A stretch of DNA of 64,000 nt, taken from contig OZ024928.1 in assembly GCA_964017235.1 (NCBI GenBank), positions 84,129,566-84,193,565 of the forward strand, written 5' to 3'. This document shows positions 16,547 through 64,000 of this stretch, piece after piece. The DNA comes from Sabellastarte sp. h YS-2021 (Eukaryota; Annelida; Polychaeta; Sabellida; Sabellidae). Within the stretch, counting starts at the first letter, position 1, and each line of letters opens with the position of its first letter. Below the pieces are notes generated by a model. It ran no database searches. It worked only from the letters and a program-made list of their open reading frames with translations, and was not told the origin of the DNA. Made by a program: the position numbers and the translations under genes.

Positions 16547-16797
16547 CTATTTACACCGACAAATTTCACACCCACTTTCGTCTTTTGCAAAACCATTGGG
16601 ACAAAACAGATCACAAAGCACTGGTTTACACTTGGCATTACATTTAGATCTGCATTCAGACAAGGTGTTAAAGCGGTTCTTGTTGCCACCACACCCACCA
16701 TACAGAAAGCTCTCACAATAGCCAGTGAAACGGTTGTAATAGTAATAATCCTCATACTCAGTGCATGGACCACTGTCTGGTGGTAGGTGACAGGCAT
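16547..16797 (-). CDS. Exon 20: Kunitz 4 plus antistasin-like domain and stop
   Basis: The acceptor is TTGTTTTCAG; the exon enters in phase 1 and ends with CGG TGT AAA TAG. It encodes [16 protein letters not shown]..., with six Kunitz cysteines in canonical spacing (C-x8-C-x15-C-x7-C-x12-C-x3-C), YYYYN in place of the usual RWYYN, and FLYGGCGGN. The residue at the P1 position (after the second Cys) is Thr, unlike the Lys/Arg of trypsin inhibitors. It is followed by [20 protein letters not shown] and CEICRCK, an antistasin-like motif (C-x4-C-x3-C-x2-GF..D..GCEIC.C). Confidence 0.9.
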
Positions 16798-17906
16798 CTG
16801 AAAACAATAGGAAAACTTCCCGAATGACATATACAGAAAAAATATATCACGAATGAAGATAACAATATTATACGAGTGCGTAGCACGAGTATTATATTGT
16901 TAATCTTCATGAGTGATATATTTTTTCTGTATGTCTGATGAGGGGGTGTTTTACTTTTATTATCCACCATTTTGTGTGATTTATCGGTTAAATAATTCGA
17001 ATATTTAATGACAGGACGTGAAAAAGGCTTTGAAAAGCATGAGCAACACTGAATATAAAAACTTCAATCTTTAACTTGCAATATCTCAGTCATTTCTGCA
17101 TGGATTTTTATGCAACATACATCAGCAGAAGCGCTACAATAACACCTTTCTAATGATATATTATATATATTTGTAAGTTGAATACTTTCCGAGATATTGT
17201 TGAAAAACCGGAAGTTATTCACACTCATTATCCATAGTACCGGGGCGCCGGTGTATACAAAAAAAATACATCCCGGTCTGTATTTCCCCGTATTTAGGGC
17301 AAATACGTCGCGTGGTGGATAATAAAAATAGTTTCATCAAGCTGTAAAACTCTTTGCTGGATTTGTTTATCATTCGAGTTTTTTCTAATTGAGTCAATTG
17401 AGAACTGTCTGGCATAAAATCACAGTAGACAAGGCAATGAAGATTGTATCGTCTGAATACGAAAAATATGATTAAGGTGCATGTGTACTTTAACATCAGA
17501 AATATGGCCAAACATTGGGTAATGAAAAGTGCTGTGAGATCCCTACCACATGTCTACTTCTGTTTTCAGAAATAAAATTGATTAAAACTATGAAATCATG
17601 ATGTCACTATTAAATCATGATGTCATTAATACGGTGATGACAAAGTGCCATACCTAAAGCCTAAAGGGAGTTTCCGTGACTTTTCAAAAACTAACATTTA
17701 TTCAGTGATATGTTCAGTGTTTAGATTTGACTCAGAATAAGCATTTGCATACTTAAAGTAAGGTAAAATCACTCATATAAAGGAATTTCGTGATTTTAAT
17801 AAAGGTACGAAATAAGAGCAAAGTTAGATGAAGATTTAATTTTTTAAAATTTATTTTATGAAAACCCTTTGACCCTTTGTGAAGAAATCTTCTTATTTTC
17901 CATTTT

Positions 17907-17937
<31 letters not shown>

Positions 17938-20900
17938 TAACTTCTCGACTGCTTTCAAGGAAGCCACGCTTTTCGTAACAACACAACTATACAGATATCA
18001 CAATTGTAATGCCATCTTTAAAACACAATTCAGTGTCTTCAGATTAATTAATCATCACTATTCATGAGTTATTAGTTATTATATATAATATGTCATGTAA
18101 TAATAGTAAAGGCAATACCTTCAGCACAACAGACACCGTCCTTACATTCATATCCTTCAGGACAAGGTTTTTTCTTTGAACAATGTAAATCCTCATTGCC
18201 CGCTTGGAGTGGTAATCCCCGTTTGCATTTCTTCACTAAAATAAACATGTTCTTCATTTCACAGATGTCCCAATGTAACGACTGTGATCTGTTCTTAAAT
18301 ACTAGGGTAAATGCAATTGTTTTCTATAATAAATTTATTTCGAACCCACTAAGGCATTTGGCCGTACTCATCAAAGGTCCCAGCAAAATAAATACGGAAC
18401 CATATAATCACAAGAAAAGGATGTAGGTCACATATTATCTTACATTTTGATTCACTTCTATTGTCTCCCTGTTTAATAGGTATCAAAGAGGTATTGATGT
18501 TTGAAGTTACCAAACCTTAAGAAAATCTATTGTTTTGACTTAATTTTTAAGTTGTGTATCTTAGATCGTCTTAATAGATATTTTAAAGTGTAATGGTTGT
18601 TAGACACACACACAAAAAAAGAAGTTACTCAATGTGACATTTAAGTGTAGTCAGCTTTAACCCAATAAGGTAGTTTTGAGTATGAATAAATTTAAACATC
18701 GTAAATATAATAGCAATAGACGGTTGTGTAATAAAGTATCAGTAATAAATGACATGCAATAGACTGCATCTCTGCAAATCTACAATAGTTTTGAAAACTT
18801 TCAACTCCAAAAAAGCTATATGCACTATTGTAGTATATTGCTTAAGATATATAAATGAAAGTTTTGAATATTATCCATATTTATTACCTCCACAAGGACG
18901 TTATCTTTGCCTGTGTAGATGACTCCAATAATCATGAGGGAGGTCTTCATTAAACCATTTTACATTGGTATGGTCTGGCTAATGGAAGAAGTGATTACAT
19001 TTTGGGAGAGATCTGGGGCCGGTTTCACAAAGGGTCTCAGACTTAGGCTAAGTCAGGGACTTAAATCTGAGTCTTTTGTCTTTGCCAATGCCTGGACTTA
19101 AATAGATTTCACAAAGGGTGACTTAGCGAAGTCCAAGCTTGTCATATAACCACAGTGGTTTTCTATGTCATGTGACCCTTTATTTCTACTCAAAATATTT
19201 AGCAGTAACATATATCCCTTGTTTAGCTCATTTTATCTTTGAAAAAATGCTGTATTTTTAAATGGGAAACCTTATAATCATACAGACATGTCCAAAGAAT
19301 AATTTAGGGAGGTGTTCTAGACATTTATTCTTTATTTTCAAGCATTTCAAATTTTGAAGTGAGAAAAATGTATGGCGGCCATATTTAAGCCTTTGTTTAC
19401 AAAAGTTAAGCCCACTCTTGGGTAGACTTAGCCAAAGCCTAGACTTAGCAGCTTTGTGAAATCCTTCAAGTCTAAGACCACAGACTTAGCCTCATTTTAA
19501 GACAAAAGTCTTCAATTTAAGTCTAAGTCTGGGCTAAGTCCTTTTGTGAAATCGACCCCAGGATCACATTTTGGATACCAAAAAATACTATAGTCTCGGA
19601 AACGCCCCGGTAGGGGTCTGAGTTCTACTATTGATTTCTAGTTTTTGTTACATTGCATATTTTGTGTTATATCTCATATATAACAGACATCCAAAACAAG
19701 ATTTATCTTTGTGTTTACAAAAGAACATTAGAATTGGTGCAGTGGCTTTACAAGTTTTAAGCTTAAATAAATACACATAACTTACGGACGCATGTGGCCA
19801 CACCAGACGGACATGGAGGAGCCAAGCAGTGAGGTCTTAAAGGTTGACAAACCTGGCCTTTAGGGCAACACGTACCCTAAATTAGCATAAAATTATGAAA
19901 TTATTAGTATAAAAATATAAAATGTCCTGGAACTGAAAGTTAATTCTAATATTATTGCTACATAAAGATGGCATGTATATATTCTTGCTGACAGACGGTG
20001 AAACCATCACAACATTCATATACTTTTAAATTTTACTGTTTTAATACTCCTGTGCAGAGTTTATTTAAACACATTAAGGTATTAAGCAACCTTTAAACTG
20101 AAAAGTATAATCATATAAATGTGAGCTTAAAATAAGTGTACTTACATGGCAAGGGTCATTGCAGTCACAAATTATGCAACCATCTTTTCTCGGCCTGAAG
20201 CCATGTGGGCATTTGGTGGCGCAATAATCAACAACTGGACATATAAGAAATTTACGACAAGTTCCAAGACACTCTTCCTTGGTCATAAAGTTGTTTTCAT
20301 TTCCCCCACATCCTCCATAAATAAATTTCTCGCATTGTTTGGTTACACTGTTAAAATAATATCTGGGGAATGATCCTCTGCAGGGTCCAGGTACTTTAGG
20401 CAAGGTGCATGGGGATGGCTCGCAGACACATCCCCTTGGACAGGGAGGTATTAAACAAGGAAATACCTTGTATTTCACCACTTCTTTTGCATTACATTTG
20501 GTATTCTGATCAGAAGTACAAAAAAAATATATTTTGATATTGTTTGTGTCAATAATTATATTAGTACACAAGTTACACGGGGAAAGATCCCAACTCCAGA
20601 CATGACTGATAAAGTGTATTTATCAATAACCATTAATCCCATTATAGGATACTAAAAGCTTTTAGGGAATATATAATGGTTCAAAGTGACAATACATACT
20701 GATTTAACATGCATTCACTGATTGATTCAAGATTAACACTAATTCTAACACATTGTATAAGTCACACAGAAAGGTGAGGGGTGGAGGTTGGCAGCACACA
20801 CTGATTGGTCAAGACTCTGCACTGAAAACCATTAACATTGGCAGGCAGATAGACATTGTCATTACTCTTGTGCAAACCATCAACAATGGTATACCTACAC

Positions 20901-23900
20901 ACTGATCTTTCAAATGTTACAAACTTGATGAAATAAACTTACCGGACATGGATTCTTACATTTACATATCTCACACCCATATTTGTCCTCTTCGAATCCA
21001 AACTGGCAAATAATGTTGCACTCTAATGGTTTGCAATCTGAGAAATAGTTTATGTGCTATTATTTCAACGTGTCAGAAAACTAAGGCCAACAGCTGTTCT
21101 CTGTAAGACTTGTTAAAACTAAACAAGTTTAATAAAATGATTACAAAAATACCACAGTTACTATCAAATCAGGCCGGCTTTTCAGTGTACAGCACATGCT
21201 ATGATGAACCGGATTAAAAGGTATAGCCATAGAGGTAAGGGTTAAACCTGTTTAAAACTTCTCGATCCATGTTAGAAGGACAAAAATCCACTGCAGAGAG
21301 TTCAATTTTACTGATATCATTTCTCAAATCCATTCTTATATTAGCTTTTGATAAAGTTGCGCAGTATTTTACATACTCAAATATATTTATAGTTGCAAAA
21401 TATTCCTAAAATTCTTTGATAACTGGTAAGATTATGAAATGTGTAATTAGTCACTGGTGACACTTATGACATGTATAAAGTAAGAAAAATTGTCAAAATT
21501 TATACCACGTTGCACCGGCAGACATCAGTGGCCTAATGTTATCACAAAAATCACAAATGTCCAAAGAAAAATTCCACCAATTCCACCAATCAATAAATTA
21601 GAAAAGGGTTTTTCTCATTGGTGAATTTACAGACTGTACTGGATTTAACATTTCTTAGTCTATGATAAGATTAGTTCTACAGAAAGACAATCTGTTAGGC
21701 GACTTGACTGCTTATTTGAGATAACTTACGTTTTGGTTGACATGCTCTGAGACAAGCAGCCTCATTTTTGAAGCTGTTCTTATTTCCACCTCCACCACCA
21801 AATCTGAATATCTTGCAGCTCTGACTGACAGAATCATAATACCAACGCTCTTTCTTTCTTTTACCACACCCAGAATCAGGAGGAAGGTGACAGATATCTG
21901 CCAGATCAAAAGTTAATTGGACAAATATAGTCAACAGGGATGTATGAACTGTCAAATAAATCAATTTACAACTTTTTTGGCTTATTTTGTTTATTTCAAT
22001 ACAAAGTCATTGTCTTAATTACTGTCACAAAAATTCCCTAAAATAGTATGAATAAGATGTCATAATGGTAATACCCCGATGTTTTGTAAATAATACAATT
22101 GAGAAATTAGTAATAGCATACCATGCACAATTTTTCAAAACTTATGAATATATACATAGTTTAATTTAAAAAGTGAAGTACATCTATGCTCCAAAATGTC
22201 ATATTTTTCACTCACCCTCAGCACAACAAACATATCGTTTGTTGGACATTTGTTTACATTCATATCCAGCTGGACATTTAAAGAAGGGTCCACATGTTGC
22301 ATCAACCAGTGGTGAACCATGTTTACACACTTTTTCTGGAATACACAAAAGATTGTTATTTTGATGTATATGAAATGAAATGGGTACTTACTCTAAATGG
22401 AGAGAATTCTGGTTGTCCCTTGTGCTGCCACACAGGGAAATGTTATCACAAATTGTGTTGAAGTAATCAATGATGTCAGTGCTACTTACATATTCCCCTC
22501 TATGAATCATACTTACCAACACATTTTCCTATATATGGACAAGGTGGTTTCTTGCAATTACTGTTTCTCACAGAGATACATTGGTATCCTTTTTCACATT
22601 CAATTTTCTGTAAAAACAAAGATAATCTGATGCAAACCAAATAATTATATCAATGAACTAATAACTGATGAACTAACTTTGTTGCACATGAGTTGAATTT
22701 CGCTACATCTTCAAAACTGTCACTCTAGTTTACAAGTTTCTTTGCAGTTGTCATCCCAGTTACTTTGGTTCTCTTTTGTCTGCTCATCGTGAATGATATA
22801 GTACAAGATACAATCCCCAGATAAAAGGTTCTTGGAGGTTCTTGAATTCTATCCACCTGTACATAAAACCAAAAAGAACTTTGGCCACAGCTTTGCTTTT
22901 GATACTCCCGCTGTGTGGAATGATTTACTTGATGAGGTCCGTTCTGCCCCAACTCTCGCCTGTTTTAGAAAAAGGTTAAAATCGGATCTCTTCAAAAAGG
23001 CTTTCCCAGCTTAGCATATACTCTATTGGACATCTTCGTGGTATGGGACTTGGTAATGGCTATTCATGGATGTTTTTTATTTGGATTCTGATGTTGTGCA
23101 TTAGAGCCTGACACAGATTAAGTGCTATAAAAGTACAAAATAAAATAAAATTAATAACAGTCAAAATGTGGATTTACCTTACAAGGACAGTTACATTGGC
23201 ATTTTCTGTTTCTGCAACCAGATTTCAGCTTCACTTCAGCAGAACAGAATGATGTACTACAGTCTATGTATTTACAGCCAGTTTTGTCACATTTATCATG
23301 GCAGTCTTTCTCACAAAGAAAGTTATTCGCATTTCCATAACAGCCGCCATAAGTGAACTGCTCACACCGCATATGCAGTCTATTATAATACCAACGGATT
23401 GTATGCAACACGCATGGTCCACTGTCAGCAGGTAGTCTACACTCTACACATAAAAATGTAAACTGGGTGAGACAAAGTCATCAATATAATTATATAATGA
23501 ATGTATAACCATGGCACACAAACTTCATAAAAACATCAAAACGGTTAAGCTATTGAAATCATTAAGGGTCTTAATACTCTTTAGTACAACCATACTCCCT
23601 ATGAAGGTCAAATATGGTGTTTTACATCCAATTCAATGGCCAGGGTCATACTGGGACAGGTCTTCAGCATTGCTCCTTGTGGGAGTCGAATCCATGCAGA
23701 GGTGACAGCCTGTGATCAGATGCCAAACCTTCTAACCTACTTCTAACCCACTGAGGGCCTCATGCTATCTATACATACTGGATAACAGGTAATAGAAACT
23801 TATCAAACAAAATACAATATTTTCTTCAAGACCTAAATTTCTTTAAGGCTTTTAATTATTGGAACAATTTCTATGCTGCATGAGAATATTTTACAGGATT

Positions 23901-26900
23901 ATGGAGTAGCTTGACACATTGCTTTAGATATGTTATGCACAATACCTTCAGCTATAACATGCATGCGTCAACTCTGTTCCTGCAATATGGAAAGTGTAAC
24001 TGCATGAATAAATGTATTAAAGGTGACAGAAATAACAGGAACTGAGCCTCTTACCACATTCATCTTTATCAATACATTGAGAACCATCCCAGAATGGCTT
24101 TTCTTTAGGGCACTCACAACGAGCGACACACTGTCTGGTACATACTGGCAAGGGATTGTCGCAAGTAGGAGTGCAGGCAGATCCGCAAGTCCTAAATACT
24201 CGCCCACCTGAAAGTTTGGAACAAAATACCCCTTTCTATCATTAATTATTGAATTTATAGTCCTTCAACAGACTTTAATGTTGACATATAAATAAGGTAT
24301 TAAAATTACAATAATATGTATTGAATTGGTACCCCAAAACATGCATAATTCTTTGCTACCATGCCTGTCAATCATAGTAGCAGCCTAGTATAGCAGTATT
24401 TCAATTCCTTGGAAGTCATTTTAATTTGAAAAGCTATGTATAATGAAATTAGCAAATAAATGAAAAGTTCAACAATTTCTTGACATTGACAAAAGGTTGA
24501 CCTAAATAGCTTGAAAATGTAATATTAGATTATTAAATGTAAAGTATATGTAATAGATATACCTGTGCACTTTGGACACTCGTTATTAGTAATACATTTC
24601 ACACCATTCCAGAGGGGCTTTTCAGTTGGGCACTCACAACGGGCGACACACTGCTCTGTACAAATTGGATTGGGAACCTCACATGTGGGAGTGCAGGCAG
24701 AACCACAAAGTTTGAACACTTGCCCACCTAAACAGTAAGCTTAAACCATAAGTATTAAAATTTCATAGCCTTGACTGATTGTCCTTGGAAATACATATTA
24801 ATTTACTTTATTTATTCTGGAAGACCAGTCTTATTGAATGAAGTACGAACAACACTTACCAGAATAAGTCAAACAAGAGTGCTTTGAATAAAAATTTTAC
24901 ATTTCTTTCACAACAGGTTCATAAACTTTGTGTCTTCTATTACGAATTCATATTTTGTATTGTACAAATATAAAAAACATTTATCTGTACCAATGCCAGT
25001 ATTAAAAATTACAGGAAGTGGAGTAGGTTCTACCTGGACATTCTTTGCACATCTGTTTTGTGATACATTTCTCACCATCCCAGAGAGGTTTGCTGGAAGG
25101 ACACTGACAGCGAGGTACACAAACAAGTGGACAGATTGGGTTAGGAACCTCACAGCTTGGGGTGCACAGCGATCCACAGGTGGTAAACACTTGCCCTCCT
25201 GTAGAATGATCACATTGAAGAGAAATAACAGAATTAGGGTGAACTATATTTTCAGCTGGACACTACATCAGTTTCCTAATTGTAATAATGAGAGCAAGAA
25301 CAAGTGTCTCGTGACCGTCAATCAAATCTTGAAAATGGGCCAAGAAAACTTAACTGGGTAACAAACAAAATGTACATATAAATGTACATTCCTTTTTATG
25401 TATTTAGAAACCAACATAGTTAGAGGTATGTTTAAAATGTGGAATAAAACATGACCACAGAAAATTTTAAAACTGTACATACGACAGGTAAGTTCATATC
25501 TACAGCTTGTTCTTCTTTCTCTATGAGGTATACCCTCATAATCAGACCAGTTACCTGAACATTTAGGACACATGGCTTTGGTGATGCACTTGTTGCCATC
25601 CCACAATGGTTTTTCTTGAGGACAATGACAACCACTCACACATTGTTTTGTACAAATTGGGTTGGTATTCTCACAAGTGGGAGTGCATGCAGATCCACAT
25701 TGTTTGTACACCTGTCCTCCTGGAAATACCAATACCATCAGTAATATATACATGGTAATAACTCACTATTTTGTATATTCTATCGTACAAGTTATAAGCT
25801 TTTAGCTCTCTCAGTAGTTTACTTGGCTTTTATATCACAAAAAAAGTTACCCCATAAAACAATGACATATGACTTGTAGTTTATATTACTAAATCATATA
25901 ACTTATGTAGCTTTGCTTGGATAACTCAGTGAGCATATAAATGATATATATATAATTTAAAAGGCCGATGTATGCAACCAAACATTACATTAACAGTGTG
26001 TATCATTTCTAGACTGTGTCCTTTGTGTGTTTCCATTTGTATTTTTGTCTTTGTGTTGGTGTTTTCAATATCTTTTATTACCAAGTCACCACAGTGGCAG
26101 AGTGGTAACACTCTCGCCTCCCACCTCTGAGATCAGGGTTCGGTTCCCGGAACGACCTAAAGTGGGAAAGCTGGTAATTGCTTGCCTATGTCGGTGTTTA
26201 AAGTACAGAACCTTGACCAACTGTATGTACTGGTTTCCTCTGCCCTTCAAACTACTCGTCGTGATATGACCTGTACAGTGTTGAAATCCCAAATAAATAA
26301 GTAAACAAAAGAGTTCATTGTATATTTATTACATGTCTTCCAACAGTAACATAGTGCAGCAGTAACATACTCAATTCCCACTCCTCAGGTTATGAGTTTG
26401 AAACCTGTAATAGGAATGTTGAAACTTGTTCGATGGTGCCTATTGGTTTTCAGTGCAAAATCTTCACCAACTAATGTCAACTTCTTCCTTCCACCACATG
26501 ACCTACTCTTTGTAATATGACCTATACAGTGTATTGAAAGTGACATTTTACCCCTGCCAATCAATCAATCAATCAATCAATCAATCTAACAGCATTCCAA
26601 TGCCTTTAATGTACACATTCAATTACACAAAAAACATGACCCAGCTTATATCCAGTCAGTATTACCTTTACATTTGGGGCACTCGTCGTGTGTGATGCAC
26701 ATAACACCATTCCAGAGTGGTTTGTGGTTGGGGCACTCGCAGCGTGGAACACACACCAGTATGCAGATAGGGTAACGGTTTTGACAAGTAGCTGTACAGG
26801 CAGACCCACAACCATTGAAAACCTGTCCTCCTGATAATTATATAAACAGTAATGTATTCTCCGGTATTACTGAATCAGATTTCTAAGAATGCCAGATTTA

Positions 26901-29900
26901 TAACAGACATAATCATATTATCGAGATATCTCCAAATAAAATGATAGGGAAATATGATGAGTTTTTCTTCTTTTTCTTAATTTAGCATCAAAATTACAAT
27001 TGCAAGTAAGTTTAACACCATTAGCCCCAGTTTACTTTAGTTAATCTCATAAATAATATCAATAGAGTTCTTGATATAAGATTCCCAAATACTTTGAGAA
27101 ATAACTTTCTGTGTCATTTATGATGACTCAGCAGCTATTTAACTGGGTAGAGGTGGTCCCAGCTCGGCCCTGGTTACCTAGCTCATTATAGTAATGTGTT
27201 GTCTTGTGGCCTTGGCTGTTTCACTGTGTCACAAAGGGTCAGGTATCGGCTACCATTTTGGACAATTAGCATTGGTAGTTATACCAAGCTATAGTAGAGA
27301 AAAGAATTTAAGTAATATATTTCTGGTCAACTCATTTGGTTCACGAAATGACATTATATCCCCATTTTAATATATAATACCAGTCCCTTTATTGTTAAAG
27401 GTGAATGGTATCCCTTCTGGATATTGCTTGGGAAGTGGCATTAATGTGACTCTCAAGTGTCTAATTTGAAGGGACTTTTATAAACCACAGGTGCGATCTC
27501 ATCTCAAGCTGGGTGATTAAATGCAGCCTTTGTTAATCACTGGGCTATAGAGGTCTGGTATTTGTATTCAAGGTCACTGTACCTGGACAATCTGGACATT
27601 CGTCCTTAGTAATACAACTCTCCCCATCCCAGAGTGGTGCCTTTGAGGGGCACTGACAGCGAGGCACACATTGTAGTGTGCAGATTGGATTGGGGTTCAA
27701 ACAGGTTGCAGTACAGGCTGATCCACATGGCATGAACACTTGTCCACCTAACAAAACAGAACACACACATTATAGTTGGTTAATATGTAAGTGTAGAGGG
27801 CTTTACACGGCAGCGGTGTAAAACCCTCTACATATGTAATCTGTTGATGCTGAGATGACATTACATTCCAAAGAAGCTGCACTATTTTAACAATACTAGA
27901 ACAAAACCATATAAATCACAAGATTTTGTGTAAATATTGTTGAACATATTTTCCATGGAAAAGTATAAATCTTGGTTATTCTTCTATTTGTTCTACGAAT
28001 AATGCAATATTACAGAAATGCAGGTTTGTCTATTTTTACAATTTAAAGAAGAACATATGTATATATTCTTAATTTAGCATTAAAGTTACAATTACAAGTA
28101 AGCTTAAGAATATGAGCCTCAGTTTACTTTAGTTAATCTCATAAATAATATCAGTAGAGTTCTTGATATAAAATTCCCAAATACTTTGAGAGATAATTTT
28201 CTGTATCACTTATATATATACTTTGATGAAGGAACCATAGAAATCGTATAAAAAAGCTATGCTTTTATACGTTTTCTATGGAAGGGACTGACTTTTTAGA
28301 GTTCACTTTTAATTGAAAGAAAACCATTAACATTAGGTTTAAGACAACCATGTTCCGTGAACACCAACCCCGGATTTTCATGACTACAATTTATAACACG
28401 ATCACATTGATAAAATGAGTACGTTATACTCATAGGTACCTGTACATTGTGGACACTCGTCTTCAGGGATACACTTTCCAAGATTCCAGATGGGTTTTTC
28501 TGGTGGACATTGACAACGGGTGACACACTGCTTGGTACAGATGGGATTAGGATTCTTACAGGTGGGAGTGCAGGCAGATCCACACAGTTTGAACACCATA
28601 CCACCTGACATACACATTGTAGAAATGCAAATACATATAGCAAATAAAGTGAACGGTGACAAGTTAGTGTTGGGGCAAATCAAATTGCCCAGCAGAGAAT
28701 GTCACGTGTGGCCATAGTGACCAGAGGTTAGGGCCGAGAAGTCATAGCCTCAGTAGCGGGAGATGAGGGTACCACCAGATCACAGTGTCATCTGGTATAC
28801 TGTCACATGCAGAACAAGAATGGATGTTTGTGAATTAAGATTTTATCTAAAAGATTTTATGTATTTAGTAACAATAAATAATGAACTACAGGTCATAAGT
28901 TGACCAACATATGAATTTGGAAGAAAAGAATTATTGTAATATGTATCTTGATTTTTAAAATGTTATCTCTAGCATTAATCGCTTTAGAGAATTAATGAAA
29001 TTTGTAGTGTCAATATGGGATCATAGATAATCTCTTCTGCGCCAGTGCTAAAATACATTCAAAACAGTAAAATAATGCATGTTTAGTATTTTAAAAATTA
29101 CTTACATTGTTAAACTTTTAAAGAAATTAAATTGATTTGTAAGAAGTAATGGCTATTTGTAATATTTGTATTACAAGGCAAATGTAATCCAAGGTCCCAG
29201 GTTGGAACATTGGCCAGTCTCTAGAGTTTGCTTTTCAAAATAACATCAAAATGATAACTAGCCAACAGACATGAGGATTCACAATGAGGATTAAAGCAGA
29301 CTTAATTGAGATGAACATGGAATTGTTTTGTATTCACAGAACTGGCCTTACCTGAACACTTTGGACACTGTGCAGATGTTATACATTGCAGGGAACCATC
29401 TTTGCCGTATACCTGTATTGGTTTCGATGATGGACACCTGAATCATATTTGTATTTTCAATAGGTTTGTCATAGTGTTTCTAACATCCTATGATTCTCTG
29501 TTATAAAAATATGCATAATGTTCGGTATAAGTAACATGAAGTTGATAGAGAAAGTATTGATGGAAGAAAGACAGGGGAAAGATTCAAAAATCGAATTTAA
29601 AAACTAAAATCTAATAAGAAACGGGTATACAAAGAGCACCTGGAAATGGTCAGTGACACTCTAAGAAAAGGTAAACGTGGAGCCAAAAATAAAGTGTACA
29701 CCATTGCCAAACATGAAAAAAATATACTTTATCATCATTTATCAAATGATACAAAGTATGGGCATTACAAGTATTCACATAACTACAAAATATAAAGGAC
29801 AGGATAAAATATGGTATGGAAAGCTGAGTAAGAATCACACTTTGTGGAATGTGACACAGGTGTACTGAAGCATATAAAGATCAAGTGTAATTCCAATTGC

Positions 29901-42840: not shown

Positions 42841-43469
42841 CACCCCAACTAGTTGCATATATAAAAAAAAAACAAAAAAAAAAAGCTGGCTAAATATAGA
42901 CCAGTAGCTGTCTAAATTCATTGGTGACTCCAGCCTCCCAGTTTTTTGCCGGTTACAGAAAATTACTGGTTACAGTAAAGTACCAGGTATGGAGTCCTGG
43001 TACTGGACAGAGTTGCCTAAGGTAAATTTGGTTACAGGGAATTCTTAGACCATTCAGTGGTCTTGGGGATATGCCAGTGATATGACAGTGTCCCAAGCTG
43101 CCAGGCAACCTTCCCTTATCACACCTCTCAACCTGTTATCGGTGCTGGACTTGACTGGAGAGATAATAAATTTTGTCATCATGTCCGGCCAGGGGTCAGA
43201 CATCTCACAAATGACAATTGCTCTGTAAATGCTGCAATTGCAGCCTGCTGGCCCGGGGCAAAGAGTCTATTAATGTGAAAAGTTGTTTCAGCCCCACCGG
43301 ACCACAATATGAACAGAGAGACTGTTAACCTGGATCATGGTCACCAGGGACAGAAAATGTTTGTCAGAATACCAAATGTCCCAAATGTGGCACACAATCT
43401 GCCTGTAGGGTCCAGACTAAGCCCTTCTTGGGAACTTAGGAAGCCTTGGGGGCTGGACCCTAGGTAGTA

Positions 43470-44100
43470 CAATTGTTGCAGGAGGGATACCTATGTCCAT
43501 ATACCCATACAAGGACAATCCAGGAAATGCCTGAGATTTCACATCCAAGGTCGGGCATACCAGTTCAAGGCCCTGCCATTCGGTTTGTCCACAGCGCCTT
43601 TGGAGTTCACCGTGATACCAAAGGAGGTGAAATTGATGGCCATACACAAGGATTTAAGAAACCACCAGTACCTAGACGACTGGTTGGTGAGAGCCAGATC
43701 CCACCAGGCTTGTCTCCAACATACACAGGAACTAGTAAATAATGTGGTAGCAACTAGGTTGGCTGGTGAACTTAGAGAAATCAGAGCTGGAGCCCAAACA
43801 AGACTTCAATTTTGTAGGCTACCAGTTCGACCTCAGGTCTGATCCGGTCCGACTGACTCCAGACCGGTGGCAGAACCTTCAAGAGAAAATGCTGAAATTG
43901 CAATCCCTACCGGCTTGCCCAGTCCGGGAATTCAGGTCCGTGATAGGCTTACTAACAGCTACAGAAAAGCAAGTTCATGTAGGCCAACTTCATATGAGAC
44001 TCATTCAGTGGCATCACAAACACAACTGGAGGGTCCCAGAATCACTGGAAAAGGTGATCCCAACCCCCAGGTCCTTGCACCCCCATTTACAATGATGGCT
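43470..44100 (+). pseudogene. DIRS reverse transcriptase remnant
   Basis: Across two or three frames: YVHIPIQGQSRKCLRFHIQG, RAYQFKALPFGLSTAPLEFT, then HQYLDDWLVRARSHQACLQH with the catalytic Y-x-D-D box, and EPKQDFNFVGYQFDLRSDPV. The N-terminal fingers are missing or unreadable. LPFGLSTAP and YLDDWL are typical of DIRS/Ngaro enzymes. Frameshift near 43745. Confidence 0.85.
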
Positions 44101-44620
44101 GAAGGAAGACAATGTACTTACAGTCCAACCATTACACCCAATAAAACATGCTCTGCAAATAATTACAGACGCATCAATAGAAGGGTGGGGCACTCGCTTA
44201 GACGAGCACCTTGCAAGAGCAACCTGGTCCCCTCCGGGAAGCAAGCTGCATATAAACTATCTAGAACTTAAAGCAGTCTTTCTGGCTTTAAAAGAGTTCT
44301 AAGACCTTTGCTCAACAAGATAGTACTTGTAGCACTGATGACACCACAGTAGTGTCATACATAAACAAGGAAGGAGGCATGAGGTCGTGGCCACTTTGTG
44401 CCCTACTATGGAAAATCTTGACCTGGTGTACCAGGAAACAAGTGACTCTAAAGCACGACACATTCCAGGCCGGCCGAATGTGGTAGCAGACAAGCTATTC
44501 AGGCTAGGTCAGATCATCCAAACAGTGGTTTCTCCTTCCAGAGGTTTTCCACTCTATGCAGCAGGTGGCACCGGCCCAAAATAGACTTATTTGCCGCGAG
44601 GTTCAACAACAGGTTGCCTC
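44100..44620 (+). pseudogene. DIRS RNase H remnant
   Basis: Frames give ITDASIEGWGTRLDEHLARA, LHINYLELKAVFLALK, DTTVVSYINKEGGMRSWPLC and HIPGRPNVVADKLFRLGQ: the D, E, D acidic residues and HIPG..N..AD motif of retroelement RNase H. Shifts near 44275 and 44340. Confidence 0.8.
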
Positions 44621-44929
44621 TGTTTGTGTCACCGGTACCGGATCCCCTGGCCACAGCAGTGGATGCGCTCAGTCGGCCATGGTAGGATCTGAAGGCATAC
44701 ACCTTCCCACCATCAGCCATTTTGGGCTAAGTGGTGGAGAAGTTACAAGACTCCCCATGCAAGAGAATCATTCTGATTGCTCCGGGGTGGCCCAACATGC
44801 CTTGGTTTTGGGATCTAGTGGCCACGTCCAGCCAAATCCCACTGAGCCTGCCCAATATGCCCAACCTGTTGACAGCCATTCAATCAGACCCCTCACAGAA
44901 ATCTGACAAACCTTAATATCCATGCAGGG

Positions 44930-45890
44930 CTCCTAGAGCCTCAGCAATCGAGGAGCAGGGCTTGTCTGAGGCAGTGGCAGCAAGGCTCCTCAAAGGGGAT
45001 CAGCCAGATCAGTCTATGAGGCAAGTGGGCCATTTTTACAAGTGATGTATCATTCATCAGGTGGACTTCGGGGCACCCCCTGTAAAGTTAGTTGCTGACT
45101 TCCTTATGTACCTATTTCAGGACAGGAAGTTGCAGCCCAGCACCATTGATGGTTACAGGTCAGACATTGCTGATAGACTGGGAAATTCGCCCATTAATAT
45201 CAGTAAGGATGAAAATCTCACTCGTCTCCTGGATAGTTTCCACTGAGACAGACCCAAAGGCCGGAAGGGAATCCCCTCCTGGAACCTCTCCCTGGTTTTT
45301 ACATCAGCTGAGAAGGGTCATTTTGAACCAATTAAAGAGGCCTCCTTGATTCATTTGACCTTCAAGGCGGTTTTCCTCTTGCCTCTTGGGTCGGGCAAGT
45401 GCAGAAGTGAGATACATGCTTGGCAAAACAGAGATATTAGACACCAGTCCGACTGGTCAAGTGTCCCTGTACCCGTCACCCAGCTTTCTCTCTAAGAATC
45501 AGCTGGCCAAAGTGGGTCCAGACAGTGTAGCCCCAGGGGTATAACAGCCCTGGCCCCAACTCTGGATAGATCCCTCAAGTCTGACAGGTCCCTCTGTCCA
45601 GTCAGAGCATTGCGCTACTATTTGGACAGGACCTCGGACAGAATAAGGAGGTGGTTTTTGTCTCCTTTAAGAAAGGTTTTGACAAAGACATTTCACCTGC
45701 CACTATCTCCTCTTGGATCAAGCAGACTGTGATCCTATGTTATGAGCTCTCTGACCAGGAGGCCCACACTTTACATCAGGTTAAAGCCCATGATGTCAGG
45801 GCCTTTGATGCTTCTAAGGTCTTCCAGTCGGAAGTTTCCTTAGATCCATTTTTGTCAGCCTGCCACTGAAGTCACATAATACCTTCACAC
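44930..45890 (+). pseudogene. DIRS tyrosine recombinase remnant
   Basis: Pieces LMYLFQDRKLQPSTIDGYRS (SAM-like N-terminal part), LCPVRALRYYLDRT, DKDISPATISSWIKQTV and HQVKAHDVRAFDASKVFQ, the last with the H-x-x-R box of tyrosine recombinases. Frames are interrupted at several points. Confidence 0.75.
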
Positions 45891-53189: not shown

Positions 53190-54260
53190 TTTCAAGGCAC
53201 AGAAGACAACAGAACCCAGCACCTGCCCAACCAGAGCCACCACCCCAGCCACAGCCCTCACCACACAGAAGAAGAAGGAAGCCACTGAATCCATGGGTTA
53301 TGCCCTGGATACTGCAGAGAGAGGAGAGAGGTTGCGACAGAACACTCTTGGACAAACTGATCACAACTGACATACCAGGCTACAGAAACTTCACCAGGAT
53401 GGAACCAGCATTTTTTATTTAATTGAACAAAGAATTACCCCCCATCTGAGGAAGTCAACCACCAACTCCAGGAAGCCACTGCAAGTCGCACTGAAACTTT
53501 CAGTTACTTTGAGACACTTATCCTTAGGGGAAACATACACTTCACTGCAATACCAATGGAGGGTTGGAAAAACAACCATCTGCAAATTTGTCCCCCAGGT
53601 CTGCAAAGCCATCTTAAAAGAATTTCAACATGAATATCTGTCCAACTGACCTAGAAGACTAGACAAGATTTAGAAACAGATGGAATGTCCCCCATGCAGT
53701 AGGTGCACTAGATGGCAAACACATTGCTATAAAGAATCCCAAGAAGTCAGGCAGTGAATATTACAACTACAATTAAGGGCTACTTCTCTCCCTGGTACTT
53801 TTGGCTTTAGTGGATGCAGAGTAAAAGTTCCTGTGGGTCAACATGGGGGCCAGTGGGTCATCATCTGATGCTCAGATATTCAACCACAGCAAACTGAGAA
53901 GAATTGAGAACGGACCTTGGGACTACCACCACCTGAACCACTTGGACCTGGGGGACCAGATCTACACTACTTCCTCTTGGGGGACAATGCCTTTGCTGGA
54001 GGATGGTCGAGAACTCTTTTTGTATACTAGTATGAAGATTCAGGGTGCTGCTGACCACCATGGAGCAGAGGCCAAAAGTTGTCAAAGACATTGTGTTAAC
54101 ATGTGTGGTACTACATAACATGCAGAGAAGCCATCAGGGGGAAGCAGACAGACCACCTATTCCATCGAATGACATACAACCACCACAGAATGACCAGGGG
54201 GAGCAGGCACAGGATGAAAACGTCAGAAATCCATCAAGGGAGGCCAAACATCAATGAGAC
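53190..54260 (+). pseudogene. Harbinger transposase (DDE_Tnp_4 type), frameshifted
   Basis: Pieces in order: ITPHLRKSTTNSRKPLQVAL, KLSVTLRHLSLGETYTSLQY, QWRVGKTTICKFVPQVCKAI (helix-turn-helix region); [36 protein letters not shown] (first catalytic Asp in GALDGKH); ALVDAE.KFLWVNMGASGSS, SDAQIFNHSKLRR (second Asp in SDA); LLTTMEQRPKVVKDIVLTCV, VLHNM (C-terminal end). The section with the catalytic Glu, between about 54020 and 54045, is largely deleted, and frameshifts occur near 53640, 53775, 53820 and 53935. Confidence 0.88.
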
Positions 54261-54719
54261 CTACTGAAAGACTACTTCAATCATGTGGGGACACTGGCTG
54301 GGCAGGAAGACAGAATTTAAGAAGACTGAGGGGAGAACAAGCTGTCATCAATCAGTCCTTTTAAGGACTACCCAAATGATCCACAAAATTTTTTGTTCAA
54401 AAAGTGTCACACACTCTGAATTAAAATTAAATTAAAAATGAAAAATACCCCCACAAAAAATAATGTTTGCAATGATATTCCAAAAGTTAAACCCAGTCTC
54501 ACACAGAATCAAACCCCAGTGCTCTAATGTCAAAGTTCAAAAGTCAACCTCCCATAAAATAACATTAGCCCCCACTATTAGAAATAATTTCATCTCTGGA
54601 AAAAAGTGTTTCAAAATCATTTACAGGTAATTTTGTAAAACCATAGCTTTTTAAAATTAACAAAAACACTTAATGGAGTTTAATGGAGTTTTAGCAATAT
54701 TCCAGCTGATGGTTTTTTT

Positions 54720-55020
54720 GTGGCATGCGAGGTATTGTTTGTCTGTCCGTTAGTCCATCCATACATTCATGGCACTTTATCTTTGTGGGATGTGTGTGGT
54801 TCACAGTGGTTTGTCTGTCTGTATGTGGGTACTTTTTTTCTAAATTTTTGGGGGTGTGGTGGGGTGGGGTGATGTGTCACTTCATGTGTTATAAATTTTG
54901 TTTCTGTGGTGGTTCGGGGAAAGTGATACTTTACTTATTGTCTTTTTTGGGGGGGTGAAAGTGTCACTTGAGGTTTCAATTTAATTTTTGGGGGGACGGT
55001 GGGGAAGTGATCCTTAATTT

Positions 55021-55051
<31 letters not shown>

Positions 55052-55110
55052 GGGGGGTTGGATTTTTAAAAAAGTTTTTTGGGGTTTTGTGTGTGTTGGC
55101 ATTTTATTTT
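54720..55110. repeat. G/T-rich low-complexity tract with a long poly-G run
   Basis: TGTGGTGGGGTGGGGTGATG-type sequence ending in about 12 T and about 27 G (55020-55058). No gene. Length in the assembly may be unreliable. Confidence 0.75.
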
Positions 55111-55289
55111 TGGTGTTAAACACTCATTCAATTATTCAGAGAATTTTATTCGTGTTTATGTGGGAAGTGTAAGTGTTGGACGGTGTGCTTTATTGTGTTT
55201 TGGGGAAGAACAAGCAGCTGAATAATTGTTTTTAGAAGATTTGGGCTACTCTTATAAGGGCTGGTTGGTGTGACTTGGTGCAAGCTGAT

Positions 55290-56563
55290 CTACTTATTTG
55301 GGCTGACTCTGCTGGTGGGACAGGCTGGGAGGTCTTGATTATTCTTGATAAGTATAAGATGGCACTGGTGACAGTGCTGGTTGAAGTTGAGAGGGTGAAA
55401 ATGGTTGTGGTGTGTCGATCTGCTGGTACTGTAGTAGACTTTGGAATCCCACCGAAGAGGCTTGACAATCCAAAAGTGTTGTATTGACTTTCCTCTTGTT
55501 GTCCAGATGCAATGGAAGGCGGGTGTTGGACTCAAAGTGAACATCAGTTGTCTGGAAGTCCCAGGCTTCTGGTCATCCACAACTGGGAAAGATGCTGGCT
55601 GTGCTGACACTGATGAAGGCCTTGATGGTTGCTATACTTTGGCAATCACTGTAGCAAGCTGTGTTGTAGCTATCTGAGTAGGCTGCACAACTTGAACGGA
55701 GACTGGTTGAGTATCCGGTATAGTGAGTATGTATTCACGTCCTGCTGTGGCCTGTGTTGCTTCTGGAAATTGAAATGTGGTGATCTGTTGACTTGTTGTG
55801 ACCTGTCTCTTGCGTTCTCTGGCCTTGTACTGTATTTCACAAAGAAGTTTCACTGTCTCATTCCTGAAGTTCAAAAAGTCTCTCTCCTCCAGGTGTTCAA
55901 TCTCAGAGTGGAGATAGTTGCAGAATCACTGTCTTGGACTTGGAGTGGGGTCCTGACGTGCACCGAAAAAGCTGAAAATCATCTACCTCATCTGCTGGAA
56001 CTGATCTAAAACTGGATCTGGAGCAGTGGTGGTGGCGACAGCTGGTGGTCGTCGTGAAGGGCTTGTGTTTGATGGCTGATGAGTAACATCTGATGTCATG
56101 CTGATTTCCATCTCAGATTCAGTCTCTTGTGAAGTATCCAGAACTGAAACTGTGGCTGCTGCTACTGAAGGGTGCACTGGTTACTTGAAGGCAGAAGACT
56201 TGGGCACTCTTTCCTTCTGATGTGACCTCGTAGAAAACTGAAACTGTCCTTCAACCAGGTGTGTCTTTCGTTGTTCCTCTCAGCAGCTTGTCCTGAGCAG
56301 CTTGTCCTGATTTTGTTTGAGTGAGCTTGCCATGTCTGGTATGTTGAGTCTTGAACCACTTCTTGACAGTGTTGATAGATAAGTTCCTGGAAGCTGTTAG
56401 TCTCTCCCAAAGTCCTTCCTTCCTCTGCTTGTCTTTGAACTTGTCATTGGTTTTGTCATAAAGTTCCTCATGCTGTTTAACAAACTCCACAATGGCTTCT
56501 TCATCTGAATCACTCAGGAAAATGGACTTCATTTGCCCCTTCTTCTCAGGAAAATGGACTTCA
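55290..56563 (-). pseudogene. Harbinger MADF/Myb-like DNA-binding protein, frameshifted
   Basis: The best frame (56532 down to 56251) begins MKSIFLSDSDEEAIVEFVKQ, HEELYDKTNDKFKDKQRKEG, LWERLTASRNLSINTVKKWF, matching the MADF/SANT pattern (hydrophobic-x-x-V-x-x-H-x-x-LYD ... K...LW..ia). Later pieces in other frames (56177-55983, 55874-55632) include ETVKLLCEIQYKARERKRQV. A 31-bp direct repeat (AATGGACTTCATTTGCCCCT...) at about 56520-56577 duplicates the region of the start codon. Confidence 0.75.
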
Positions 56564-56639
56564 TTTGCCCCTTCTTCTGTCTGGAATGAGTTGATTCTAC
56601 ATCAGTATCCGTGTCTGTCCGTGGTCACTTTTCTGTCCT

Positions 56640-60420: not shown

Positions 60421-61066
60421 AATCGACACCAAATATTTGTACTGGCCACACTCTAGAGCTGAAAGAGAGTTAGCCACTGAGTAGAAGACGCAGGGAACAG
60501 GTAGCTCCTGCTGTCATGCTGGAGACCAAGATTAACAGAGCTCTCCAAAATATATAAAGGTGATGGGCTTCTCCAGGAAGATGGGTATATTTTTTATGGG
60601 CAACATTAAGAATGTGACAGTAGATTTCTTGAAGAACCACGAGTGCCTTAGTAACAAACATGATCCAAAAGAAAGATATGCTCTGGGGAGATTTTTGCCA
60701 GACTCCAATCCTGGATCAAGAGGAGATGAAGAAAAACACAGACGCCTTGGATACTGAAGACCACAAGACAAAATGCAGTCAAACAGCCACAACAACCACA
60801 TGCCAGCATTCATAACAGCCTGTCACTGTTTTTCAGGCACAACAGCAGCCTTCGATAGATGCCCTGGTCCAAGCATGCCATCTCGGACCACAACTTGTTT
60901 ATCAGGCACCACAGAAATATTTCTGCCATTGCCACATTATTCAAGGTCAGGTTTGAAGTATAAGTTGATTATCCATGAAACACTTCCTCAGTACCTTCCC
61001 TCATCAGTGATCGCCACTAGTCACAAATCAGCCCCAATACGTTAATGTAATTAAAATACACTTTAT
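60421..61066. other. Less AT-rich segment upstream of the H3-tail gene, unassigned
   Basis: Base composition rises and frames of 65-93 codons exist on both strands (60560-60757 and 60773-61045 plus; 60532-60813 minus), but none has a recognisable domain and they overlap. It may be a 5' non-coding exon with promoter of the gene at 61081, or an old retroposed fragment. A pyrimidine-rich AG (CTTTATTTTTGTAG, ending at 61074) directly precedes the ATG exon. Confidence 0.3.
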
Positions 61067-61080
61067 TTTTGTAGCCTAAT

Positions 61081-61207
61081 ATGGCAAGAACTGTACAAAC
61101 TGCCAGGAGAAGCACTGGCGGGAAGGCCCCAAAGAAGATGCTGGCTTCCAAAGGAGCTCGCATGGCAGATTCTGGGGATTCAAACGGCGATACTCCGAAA
61201 AAGCGAG
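61081..61207 (+). CDS. H3-tail exon
   Basis: 127 nt, ATG to ...AAG CGA G|GTGACT. The ATG lies six bases after a TTTTTGTAG that looks like a splice acceptor, so either a non-coding first exon lies upstream or the transcript is trans-spliced; the sequence cannot decide. The 42-codon length is close to the first coding exon of vertebrate H3.3 genes (from memory), which would suit descent from an intron-containing H3 gene. Confidence 0.78.
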
Positions 61208-63078
61208 GTGACTTAACTGATGTTGAAGTACTTTGGCATTTCTAAATGAGAAATGGATTATTTCATTTATTTGGAATATAAAATTTTAAAGGGATTACTC
61301 TTTTTCATTTGAGCATCAATAATTCAGATAAAGTGGTGGATCATTTTCAGTTGCCTTCATGTTGAAATATGACATATTTTGATGTTATTATCACTAGATG
61401 TAACTTATTTTAAGTATGGCAAAGAGAATATTTGAGTACAAAATATTACTACAACTGGAAAGGAATATTGTGCTTTCATATTCAAGTTAAACTTCCCAAT
61501 TGGTTTTCAAAGTAAAACTTCGCAATTGGTCATGAATTTTGTTAACAGATGACTAGACATTTTTATCAGATAACCAAGATGAAAATCTTTTCTTTACATT
61601 GTTAACATTGGTTTAACCAAAGTAATATATGTGATTAACATAAAAAGAAATTCTCTGATTATCAATTTTTACCTCACAGCCCTTAAGGGCTGTCGGGATA
61701 TTGTTTTCACCCATTGTGTCCAGATGGGCGGGCGGCGGAAAAAGTTTGTCCGGGCTGTATCTCAGAAACCGTAAGGTGTAGGAAGTTGATACTTGGTAGG
61801 GACATTGGTTAGAGGGTGTACATGTGCAACGTCATGGTGTGACCTTGATTTGACCTTGCCGCAGTGACCTTGACTTTGAAAATCTTGTCCGGGCTATATC
61901 TCGGAAACCATAAGGTGTAAGAAGTTGATACTAGGCAGGGACATTGGATAGGGGGTGTAGGTGTGCAACATCATGGTGTGACCTTGATTTGACCTTTGAC
62001 CTTGCCGTAGTGACCTTAAACTATAAAATCTTGTCCGGGCTATATCTCAGAAACCGTAAGGTGTAGGAAGTTGATACGTGGTAGGGACATTGGTTAGGGG
62101 TTGTAGGTGAGCAATGTCATGGTGTGACCTTGTTTGACCTTTGACCTTGCCGTGGTGACCTTGACCTATAATATCTTATCCTGGCTATATCTTGGAAACT
62201 GTAAGGTGTAGGAAGTTGATACTTGATAGGGGCATTGGTTAGGGGTTGTAGGTGTGCATCATAATTTTTAGTTTACTGATTAATGCTGTCATCTTGCTAT
62301 TGAATTGTCTTGTTTTAATACTTTATCTTTTCATACATTTTCCTTCTCTTAGATGTTATTTTCTCTACTTAAACATCATTTTGACCTTAATATAACTGAC
62401 ACTGCTCAGAAAGTATCCCGATCTTTGTACTGTTTCACTACTTCTATATCTCACGGTGTTGAAAACTATTTCCCCAGGCTGTGGGCTAAGGGCATCTCTG
62501 ATGCTATTTTGTAAAATCTTTTCAATTAAAAATCTGTCATCTGGGAAAAACTATGCAATGTATAGAATGTTTTGATTTGGCCTTGTTTAATAAACTTATA
62601 TCTGGTGAAGTTGTTTAAAATTATAGGGTTGGGTGTCGTGAGAAAAAAGAAACCTGTGAGACAAGCAAGTTTAGTGAAAAAGCAAAGCACCATGAAGGGA
62701 CAGGGTATGCTCTTATCAGTATGATTTACTGTAGTGTATTGCCAATGGTGTCATAAGCTTGCAGTTTGAATCCAACTTTTAGTCTTTAATTTGGTATTTA
62801 TATTTTTGCAATTCAGTATTAAACTAAATGCTCATATTAAATTTATGTTTCATGTTGAAAATGTATATATATTCTCCAGAGTATTAAATTTAACATCATT
62901 ATATCATTTGCATTATTTAACATATCATAAGATTTATGGTACCTACAACCTATTATACAGATAAGGCAACATCTTTAACCAAGGTACCATCCATGAAATC
63001 ACAGAAGTCATTGAGCAAGCCTTCCCTTGCCAAAGCTGCAACTCTGAAGTTGACAAAGCAAACTTCAGCAGCCAAAAG
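61081..63078 (+). CDS. Lysine-rich protein with a histone H3-tail-like N-terminus (first three coding exons; incomplete)
   Basis: Three exons with GT-AG introns and joining phases give 107 complete codons, leaving an open phase that continues beyond the window. Residues 1-29 copy the H3 tail: MARTVQTARRSTGGKAPKKM, LASKGARMA, compared with H3 the differences include K4V, K9R, R17K, Q19M, T22S, A24G and K27M (H3 numbering without the first Met). After residue 30 similarity ends; the rest is basic and rich in Lys and Ser (KKRGLGVVRKKKPVRQ; SLTKVPSMKSQKSLSKPSLA) with no histone fold in the visible part. A nuclear, chromatin-associated protein is inferred. An SV40-like basic cluster RKKKPVR could act as a nuclear localisation signal. 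It is not a processed pseudogene, since introns are present. Confidence 0.75.
61677..62265. repeat. ~145-bp tandem repeats in intron 1, four units
   Basis: The array starts with the palindrome CAGCCCTTAAGGGCTG, then units with TTGTCCGGGCTATATCTCGG, AAACCGTAAGGTGTAGGAAG, TTGATACTTGGTAGGGACAT, TGGTTAGGGGGTGTAGGTGT and GACCTTGATTTGACC. The same family occurs at 63233 onward and around the DIRS insertion. Confidence 0.9.
62627..62704 (+). CDS. Second coding exon of the H3-tail gene
   Basis: 78 nt, acceptor AAAATTATAG, donor GTATGC, phase 1 in and out. Encodes GLGVVRKKKPVRQASLVKKQ, STMKGQ. The donor is weak at position +6. Confidence 0.65.
62961..63078 (+). CDS. Third coding exon of the H3-tail gene
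   Basis: 118 nt, acceptor CTATTATACAG, donor GTAAGA. Encodes DKATSLTKVPSMKSQKSLSK, PSLAKAATLKLTKQTSAAK and leaves two bases of the next codon. No further exon is found before the right edge. Confidence 0.7.
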
Positions 63079-63232
63079 GTAAGATAGCTACTGTAAAAAT
63101 TAAAATATTAAACGTTACATTCTCATTATTTATTATTTTACATTGAATTTTCTCATTAGAGTGTTTTGTTAACCTAATTTGTAAATTTTTGTGATTCAGT
63201 TTTGTGATTTTAAATATTGTGTATTTTTACCC

Positions 63233-64000
63233 CACAGCCCTTAAGGGATGTCGGAGTATTGCTTTCACCCATGGTACCCGGATGGGCAGGCGGGCGGCAG
63301 GAAAAAGTTTGTCCAGCCTGTATCTCAGAAACCATAAGGTGTAAGAAGTTGATACTTGGTAGGGACATTGGTTAGGGGGTGTAGGTGTGTAACGTCATGG
63401 TATGACCTTGATTTGAACTTGCCGTAGTGACCTTGACCTATAAAATCTTGTCTGGGCTATATCTCGGCAACCGTAAGGTGTAGGAAGTTAATACATAGTA
63501 GGGACGTTGGTTAGGGGGTGTAGGTGTACAACGTCATGGTGTGACCTTGATTTGACCTTTGACCTTGCTGTAGTGACCTTGACCTATAAAATCTTGTTCG
63601 GGCTATAGCGCGGCAACAGTATGGTGTAGGAAGTTGATACTTGGGTAGGGATATTGGTTAGGGGCAGTAGGTGTGCAATGTCATGGTGTGACCTTGATTT
63701 AACCTTTGACCTTGCTGTAGAGACCTTGACCTATAAAATCTTGTCTAGGCTATACCTCGGCAACCGTATGGTGTAGGAAGTTTGTACGTGTCAGGGACAT
63801 TGGTTGGATGTTGTAGGTGTGCAACATCATGGTGTGACCTTGATTAGACCTTTGACCTTGTCATAGTCACATGTTTTTGATTCCATAAGGTGTAGAAGGT
63901 TGACACTTGGTAGGGACATTGGTTAGGGGGTGTAGGTGTGCATCATGCTGTGACCTTTAACTTTGGCTCTGCCAAAGTGTGTTCACTTGCCATATTTGAG
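63233..64000. repeat. ~145-bp tandem repeats in intron 3, at least five units, running off the window
   Basis: Begins with CACAGCCCTTAAGGGATGTCGG, the same head as at 61677, then units with GTAAGGTGTAGGAAGTTGAT and GACCTTGATTTGACCTTTGA. It reaches the right edge. Confidence 0.9.

Follow-up and report, generated by a model that had tools for sequence, protein, structure and literature searches.

A predicted gene opening with a histone H3-like tail altered at K4, K9, and K27

The first coding exon of a predicted gene near the end of the window (the whole 64,000-nt stretch of DNA that was analyzed) encodes a protein start resembling the tail of histone H3, with the lysines at positions 4, 9, and 27 replaced by valine, arginine, and methionine. 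The exon is real and unusual, and its resemblance to the H3 tail is real. H3 residues 1 to 28 aligned without gaps to codons 2 to 29 of the frame starting at 61081, with 20 of 28 residues identical; counting Met, there were 21 identities over 29 ungapped positions, and the second-best place in the window had 9. The coding content of the exon at 61081 to 61207 is MARTVQTARRSTGGKAPKKMLASKGARMADSGDSNGDTPKKR (the translation of 61081 to 61206) plus one extra base. A tblastn comparison of H3.3 with the window placed the tail at 61081 at E = 3.4e-9 (45.8 bits), with the next-best place at E = 2.6. When exon 1 was compared with PDB sequences by phmmer, 135 distinct sequences were recovered at E ≤ 1 (top E, 1.5e-7), and the best 60 of these 135 were all H3, H3 variants, or H3 chimeras. 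The alignment of exon 1 to H3 outscored all of 2,000 shuffles, beginning at the initiator Met and stopping after residue 28. The earlier note had described a gapless alignment of the first 29 codons with about 20 of 28 residues identical, and these results bear it out. Chance likeness in noncoding DNA, in favor of which nothing was found, is refuted and retains a negligible probability, since the tblastn E value is 3.4e-9 and the 21 identities compare with 7 to 10 over Met and 28 residues in 200 first-order Markov sequences, none of which exceeded 10.

Eight changes separate the tail from H3 residues 1 to 28: K4V, K9R, R17K, Q19M, T22S, A24G, K27M, and S28A. The retained H3 residues include R2, T3, T6, R8, S10, T11, K14, K18, K23, and R26; A1-R2-T3, S10, and T11 are docking and kinase sites. 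The alignment confirms the earlier statement that K4, K9, and K27 had become V, R, and M while K14, K18, and K23 were kept. The accompanying claim that the new residues cannot be methylated stands for lysine methylation at positions 4, 9, and 27 and is too strong for R9; arginines can be methylated, by other enzymes, and R17K adds a new lysine. The term “methyl-dead” therefore applies only to lysine methylation at these three positions. If eight changes are placed at random among 28 positions, the probability that K4, K9, and K27 are all changed is 0.017, and the probability that these three are lost with K14, K18, and K23 spared is 0.0085; both values were computed post hoc with all positions treated as equal, so they are weak and at most suggestive. 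Three sites in the tail are referred to below.

61084 to 61092, plus strand: A1-R2-T3, a motif that the UHRF1 PHD finger recognizes (from the translation; ART/VRT motif in passages of PMC11187062 and PMC7060239)
61093 to 61095, plus strand: V4 codon, directly after A1-R2-T3
61159 to 61164, plus strand: R26-M27 (CGC ATG), a K27M-like core (from the codon table; compare EZHIP R405-M406 in passages of PMC6513997)

The gene model within the window comprises the following features (a slash marks a splice junction).

61065 to 61080, plus strand: likely 3' splice site, tttttgtag/CCTAAT, pyrimidine-rich (from the sequence; pyrimidine fraction, 0.77)
61081 to 61207, plus strand: exon 1, with the ATG, the H3-like tail (codons 2 to 29, 61084 to 61167), and 13 complete codons (from phmmer, tblastn, and alignment)
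61208 to 62626, plus strand: intron 1, predicted from GT-AG ends and phase, containing a repeat element that includes 146-bp tandem units
62627 to 62704, plus strand: exon 2, weakly supported, a Lys-rich 78-nt in-frame cassette of 26 codons running from phase 1 to phase 1
62705 to 62960, plus strand: intron 2, predicted (GC, 0.258)
62961 to 63078, plus strand: exon 3, fairly well supported, Lys/Ser-rich and phase-compatible (donor, 8 of 9 consensus bases)
63079 to 64000, plus strand: start of intron 3, predicted, mostly occupied by copy 2 of the repeat element; the gene exits the window here

The likely acceptor lies six bases before the ATG and therefore implies an upstream exon of 5' untranslated sequence. 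Exon 1, the first coding exon, is 127 nt long and ends in phase 1 at CGAG/GTGACT. Among 67 phase-compatible open AG..GT intervals of 75 to 300 nt, 3 passed both splice filters, which were crude, and all 3 ended at the exon 3 donor. Exon 3 itself ends in phase 2 at AAAAG/GTAAGA; the reading frame is open at this last donor (63078), so the protein extends past the window. The donor of exon 2 matches six of nine consensus bases, and this exon may not be real; because it is an in-frame cassette, exon 1 could also be spliced straight to exon 3. GC content was 0.535, 0.45, and 0.43 in exons 1, 2, and 3, compared with 0.361 in intron 1 (0.289 without the satellite) and the low value of intron 2. The GC content of exons 2 and 3 had no clear bias by codon position (0.40, 0.46, and 0.46), a point against the model, as are the chance probabilities of such open frames given below. 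The introns claimed earlier are thus a prediction, one for which exon 3 makes a fairly good case and exon 2 a weak one.

Up to the donor at 63078 the predicted protein has 107 residues, of which 78 follow the H3-like tail. The 65 residues encoded by exons 2 and 3 contain 23% K and 14% S, carry a net charge of +16, and include no F or Y, a composition that agrees with the Lys/Ser-rich continuation reported previously. No Pfam family scored above its cut-off for the predicted protein in the window, and exons 2 and 3 matched none. Their alignment to H3 residues 29 to 135 scored 22, which 1,256 of 2,000 shuffles equaled or bettered; for human CENP-A, 1,922 of 2,000 did so. Matches to H3.3 and CENP-A in the window were recorded up to E 1000 (455 and 620 matches, respectively). 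The best E values from 61208 to 64000 were 34 for H3.3 and 83 for CENP-A, and those from 63079 to 64000, in the start of intron 3, were 437 and 146. The best place for CENP-A in the window (53195 to 53272; E 0.010) is Pro/Arg-rich and remote from the gene. A histone fold is accordingly absent from the 107 visible residues, and the earlier remark to that effect holds for the visible part; coverage ends at 64000, with the gene continuing beyond. Two short motifs were observed in this region. KKPVR near the start of exon 2 (62627 to 62704) resembles KKPHR of H3, in a region whose alignment to H3 is no better than those of shuffles, and TKQT near the end of exon 3 (63040 to 63078) occurs as in H3 residues 3 to 6 and was present in 0.8% of 100,000 shuffles; we regard the two motifs as curiosities.

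The sole Pfam match of exon 1 was PF15715 (12.8 bits; E 0.21), which points to PAF15/PCLAF, a protein with a known H3-like N terminus, and to the reading that the gene is its ortholog. The ART start and lysines at 15 and 24 agree with this identity, and exon 1 aligned to human PAF15 with a score of 37, somewhat above chance (68 of 2,000 shuffles equal or better). The score of 12.8 is nonetheless below the family cut-off of 23.4, and a plain H3 tail reached 18.4 and the human PAF15 N terminus 38.8; likewise, the H3 tail aligned to PAF15 at 55, compared with 37 for exon 1. A 31-residue piece of exon 1 matched no family, and the corresponding piece of H3 reached 15.3 bits. Since an H3 tail outscores exon 1 on this profile, the PF15715 match reflects H3 likeness. 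Exons 2 and 3 are unlike PAF15 (441 of 2,000 shuffles equal or better), and the 107 visible residues, which have no F or Y, therefore hold no PIP box; later exons lie beyond the window. We consider PAF15/PCLAF identity very unlikely.

The predicted introns carry a repeat element in two related copies.

61658 to 62280: repeat element copy 1, in intron 1, with 146-bp tandem units (array, 61746 to 62262)
63216 to 63946: repeat element copy 2, in intron 3, with 146-bp tandem units (array, 63330 to 63860; families D1 to D4)

The relationship between the copies includes a 300-nt segment (D3) with 90% identity, repeated 1,563 bp apart. Both copies carry a similar leader, CCCTTAAGGG, and a further, separate 146-bp array was observed at 6097 to 6505. 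Related repeats in introns 1 and 3 are among the observations that would fit a copy that has decayed or is dead, whether derived from an H3 gene or from a captured H3 exon. Without splicing, the frame also runs for 54 residues, Met included, before a stop at 61245, and open frames such as these could occur by chance with probabilities of 0.05 (exon 1), 0.16 (exon 2), and 0.06 (exon 3). Pointing away from decay, the tail contains no frameshift or stop, and the splice signals to exon 3 are fair. When the six complete codons after the ATG were compared with what we take to be an H3 forward primer, a string present in 16 listed papers that likewise refer to molluscs, all six differed, five silently and one as K4V; the primer is degenerate and does not stand for a gene, so the comparison is only a hint of a copy that is not recent. 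The earlier note had named a downstream H3 fold with stop codons as the mark of a decayed copy. Because exons 2 and 3 show no similarity to H3, what is visible of the gene is not an H3 fold in decay. Altogether, a dead copy appears improbable to us.

Elsewhere in the window, 67 open reading frames (ORFs) of at least 90 residues were found, and the 10 scanned with Pfam, which have no bearing on the H3-tail gene, comprised exons for protease inhibitors, remnants of transposons, and one ORF with no match. A cluster of protease-inhibitor exons on the minus strand (16547 to 28701) comprises four Kunitz ORFs, two of which are also antistasin-like, and two TIL ORFs, all above Pfam cut-offs. The longest of the 67 ORFs, a 396-residue stop-to-stop frame on the plus strand (13508 to 14698), had no Pfam match to E 0.01. 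Remains at 53825 to 56601 resemble a PIF/Harbinger-type element, with DDE_Tnp_4 on the plus strand at 20.4 (below the cut-off of 24.8) and MADF on the minus strand at 31.7 (cut-off, 22). Broken retroelement-like ORFs occupy 43464 to 45869 on the plus strand, one with RVT_1 at 30.8, barely above the cut-off of 29.6. Long 21/63-bp tandem arrays lie at 9606 to 12203, where, by eye, the unit of the right block resembles the reverse complement of that of the left.

Our leading reading, favored tentatively and at somewhat less than an even chance, is that the gene encodes a divergent, intron-containing H3 variant, perhaps a centromeric H3 (cenH3/CENP-A), with its fold encoded beyond the window; the earlier note had not raised this alternative. 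The gapless 28-residue alignment that starts at the initiator Met and exceeds every shuffle argues for this reading, as does the resemblance of the gene start, with its acceptor six bases 5' of the ATG and its 127-nt first coding exon, to intron-containing H3 genes. H3.3 genes have such an intron-containing layout, unlike the intronless replication-type H3 genes. The gene is also unfinished at the end of the window. The six-codon primer comparison above, with five silent differences and one amino-acid change, is a further, weak point on this side. The tail departs from H3 as those of cenH3 proteins do, with 8 of 28 residues changed and no H3 similarity thereafter, a feature that is not specific to cenH3. 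According to passages of PMC7348941, cenH3 tails are the part that differs most between species, and the oyster cenH3 antibody peptide TGGIKEPRNW has 5 of its 10 residues in common with H3 32 to 41, indicating that oyster cenH3 retains an H3-like stretch. That stretch is absent from exon 1, however, and the oyster passages are silent on residues 1 to 28. Also weighing against a variant are the 107 visible residues without a histone fold, 78 of them after the tail, and the comparison of exon 1 with human CENP-A, for which 762 of 2,000 shuffles were equal or better. We lowered our estimate for the variant slightly because the oyster stretch is missing here and the residues that follow residue 28 contain no fold.

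If the gene does encode such a variant, a long Lys/Ser-rich tail followed by a histone fold past the window would place the protein in nucleosomes. Its H3-like end would retain A1-R2-T3, S10, T11, and the acetyl/ubiquitin lysines K14, K18, and K23, and V4, R9, and M27 would leave such nucleosomes unmarkable at three main sites of H3 lysine methylation.

The rival of the variant reading, to which we assign a lower though still appreciable probability, is that the first exon of an H3 gene was captured by another chromatin protein, yielding a non-histone mimic of the H3 tail that competes with H3. Such a mimic might act in either or both of two ways, by analogy with known proteins. In the first, M27 and R26 would occupy the active site of PRC2, as H3K27M and EZHIP do. 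Inhibition of PRC2 by EZHIP depends on a short peptide in which an Arg and a Met (R405 and M406) are essential, and the motif functions between disordered repeats (passages of PMC6513997); R26-M27 supplies the same kind of R-M core here, and the visible body is Lys/Ser-rich (net charge of +16 in its 65 residues), lacks F and Y, and matches no Pfam family. In the second, ART-V would dock in the UHRF1 PHD finger, free of K4, K9, and K27 methylation, and K14, K18, and K23 might accept ubiquitin and thereby recruit DNMT1, in a PAF15-like manner. UHRF1 reads unmodified R2 and ubiquitinates H3 at K14, K18, and K23 (passages of PMC6316679), and the predicted protein carries A1-R2-T3 and all three of these lysines. 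It also has K15 and K24 (Met counted), like the PAF15 lysines that UHRF1 ubiquitinates (passages of PMC7060239). In DPPA3, the Leu after VRT packs against the UHRF1 PHD finger (passages of PMC11187062), which suggests that an aliphatic residue can be accommodated at the place of K4. Octopus has UHRF1, DNMT1, and an EZH2 ortholog (passages of PMC9476566). The loss of K4, K9, and K27 with K14, K18, and K23 kept (P = 0.0085, a figure chosen post hoc) is a further point in favor of a mimic. Conversely, the change at position 9 is not from K to M, and a histone fold may follow, because the gene is cut short by the end of the window. The earlier proposal of a methyl-dead decoy or inhibitor of H3-modifying enzymes is thus plausible biochemically as far as the R-M core is concerned, by analogy with EZHIP, and less apt for R9. 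The more specific proposal, that an animal non-histone protein bears a free H3 tail with K4, K9, and K27 edited and is a natural multi-site mimic, which would inhibit PRC2 through M27, having evolved independently of mammalian EZHIP, and/or would still dock on UHRF1-type readers and accept ubiquitin or acetyl groups at K14, K18, and K23, seems to us unlikely.

Pattern searches gave 15 matches in viral contigs and 89 in prokaryotic genome contigs, none of which was confirmed as a relative; such an absence is expected for an animal gene, because the collections searched were viral and prokaryotic. No description of this protein occurred among the literature matches listed, in a search whose coverage excludes most subscription journals. 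Should the protein be a histone variant, it would carry an H3-type tail from which three main methylation sites have been removed and in which the acetyl/ubiquitin sites are kept, amounting to a natural separation-of-function experiment. Should it be no histone, it would serve as a counterpart to EZHIP or PAF15 and as evidence that nearly an entire H3 tail can be borrowed.

Compared with H3 and H3.3, the protein shares the start at Met and 20 of its first 28 residues but differs at K4, K9, K27, R17, S28, and three other positions, and the match ends after residue 28; in canonical H3 and H3.3 the fold directly follows the tail, whereas here the best E value downstream was 34. It resembles cenH3/CENP-A in having a tail that departs from H3 and that would also be long if a fold follows; long cenH3 tails occur in several animals. 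The visible part here nevertheless lacks a fold and has no similarity to human CENP-A, and oyster cenH3, as described in the passages cited above, has a stretch like H3 32 to 41 that is missing here. PAF15/PCLAF likewise has an H3-like N terminus and lysines at 15 and 24, but the Pfam score obtained here is below both the cut-off and that of H3 itself, and the visible part has no PIP box. Of the natural precedents described in the passages cited, none unites V4, R9, and M27 in a single tail. Plant H3.15 offers a natural loss of K27 that prevents H3K27me3 (passages of PMC10426802), a likeness drawn from its description only; in that plant H3 variant, K27 is changed to His. EZHIP (CXorf67/CATACOMB) is similar in setting the R-M core of a K27M-like peptide beside low-complexity sequence (passages of PMC6513997). 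Its motif is C-terminal, in contrast to the N-terminal position within an H3-like tail here, and EZHIP is encoded by an X-linked, single-exon gene confined to placental mammals (passages of the preprint PMC12713659); the gene model here is predicted to have several exons.
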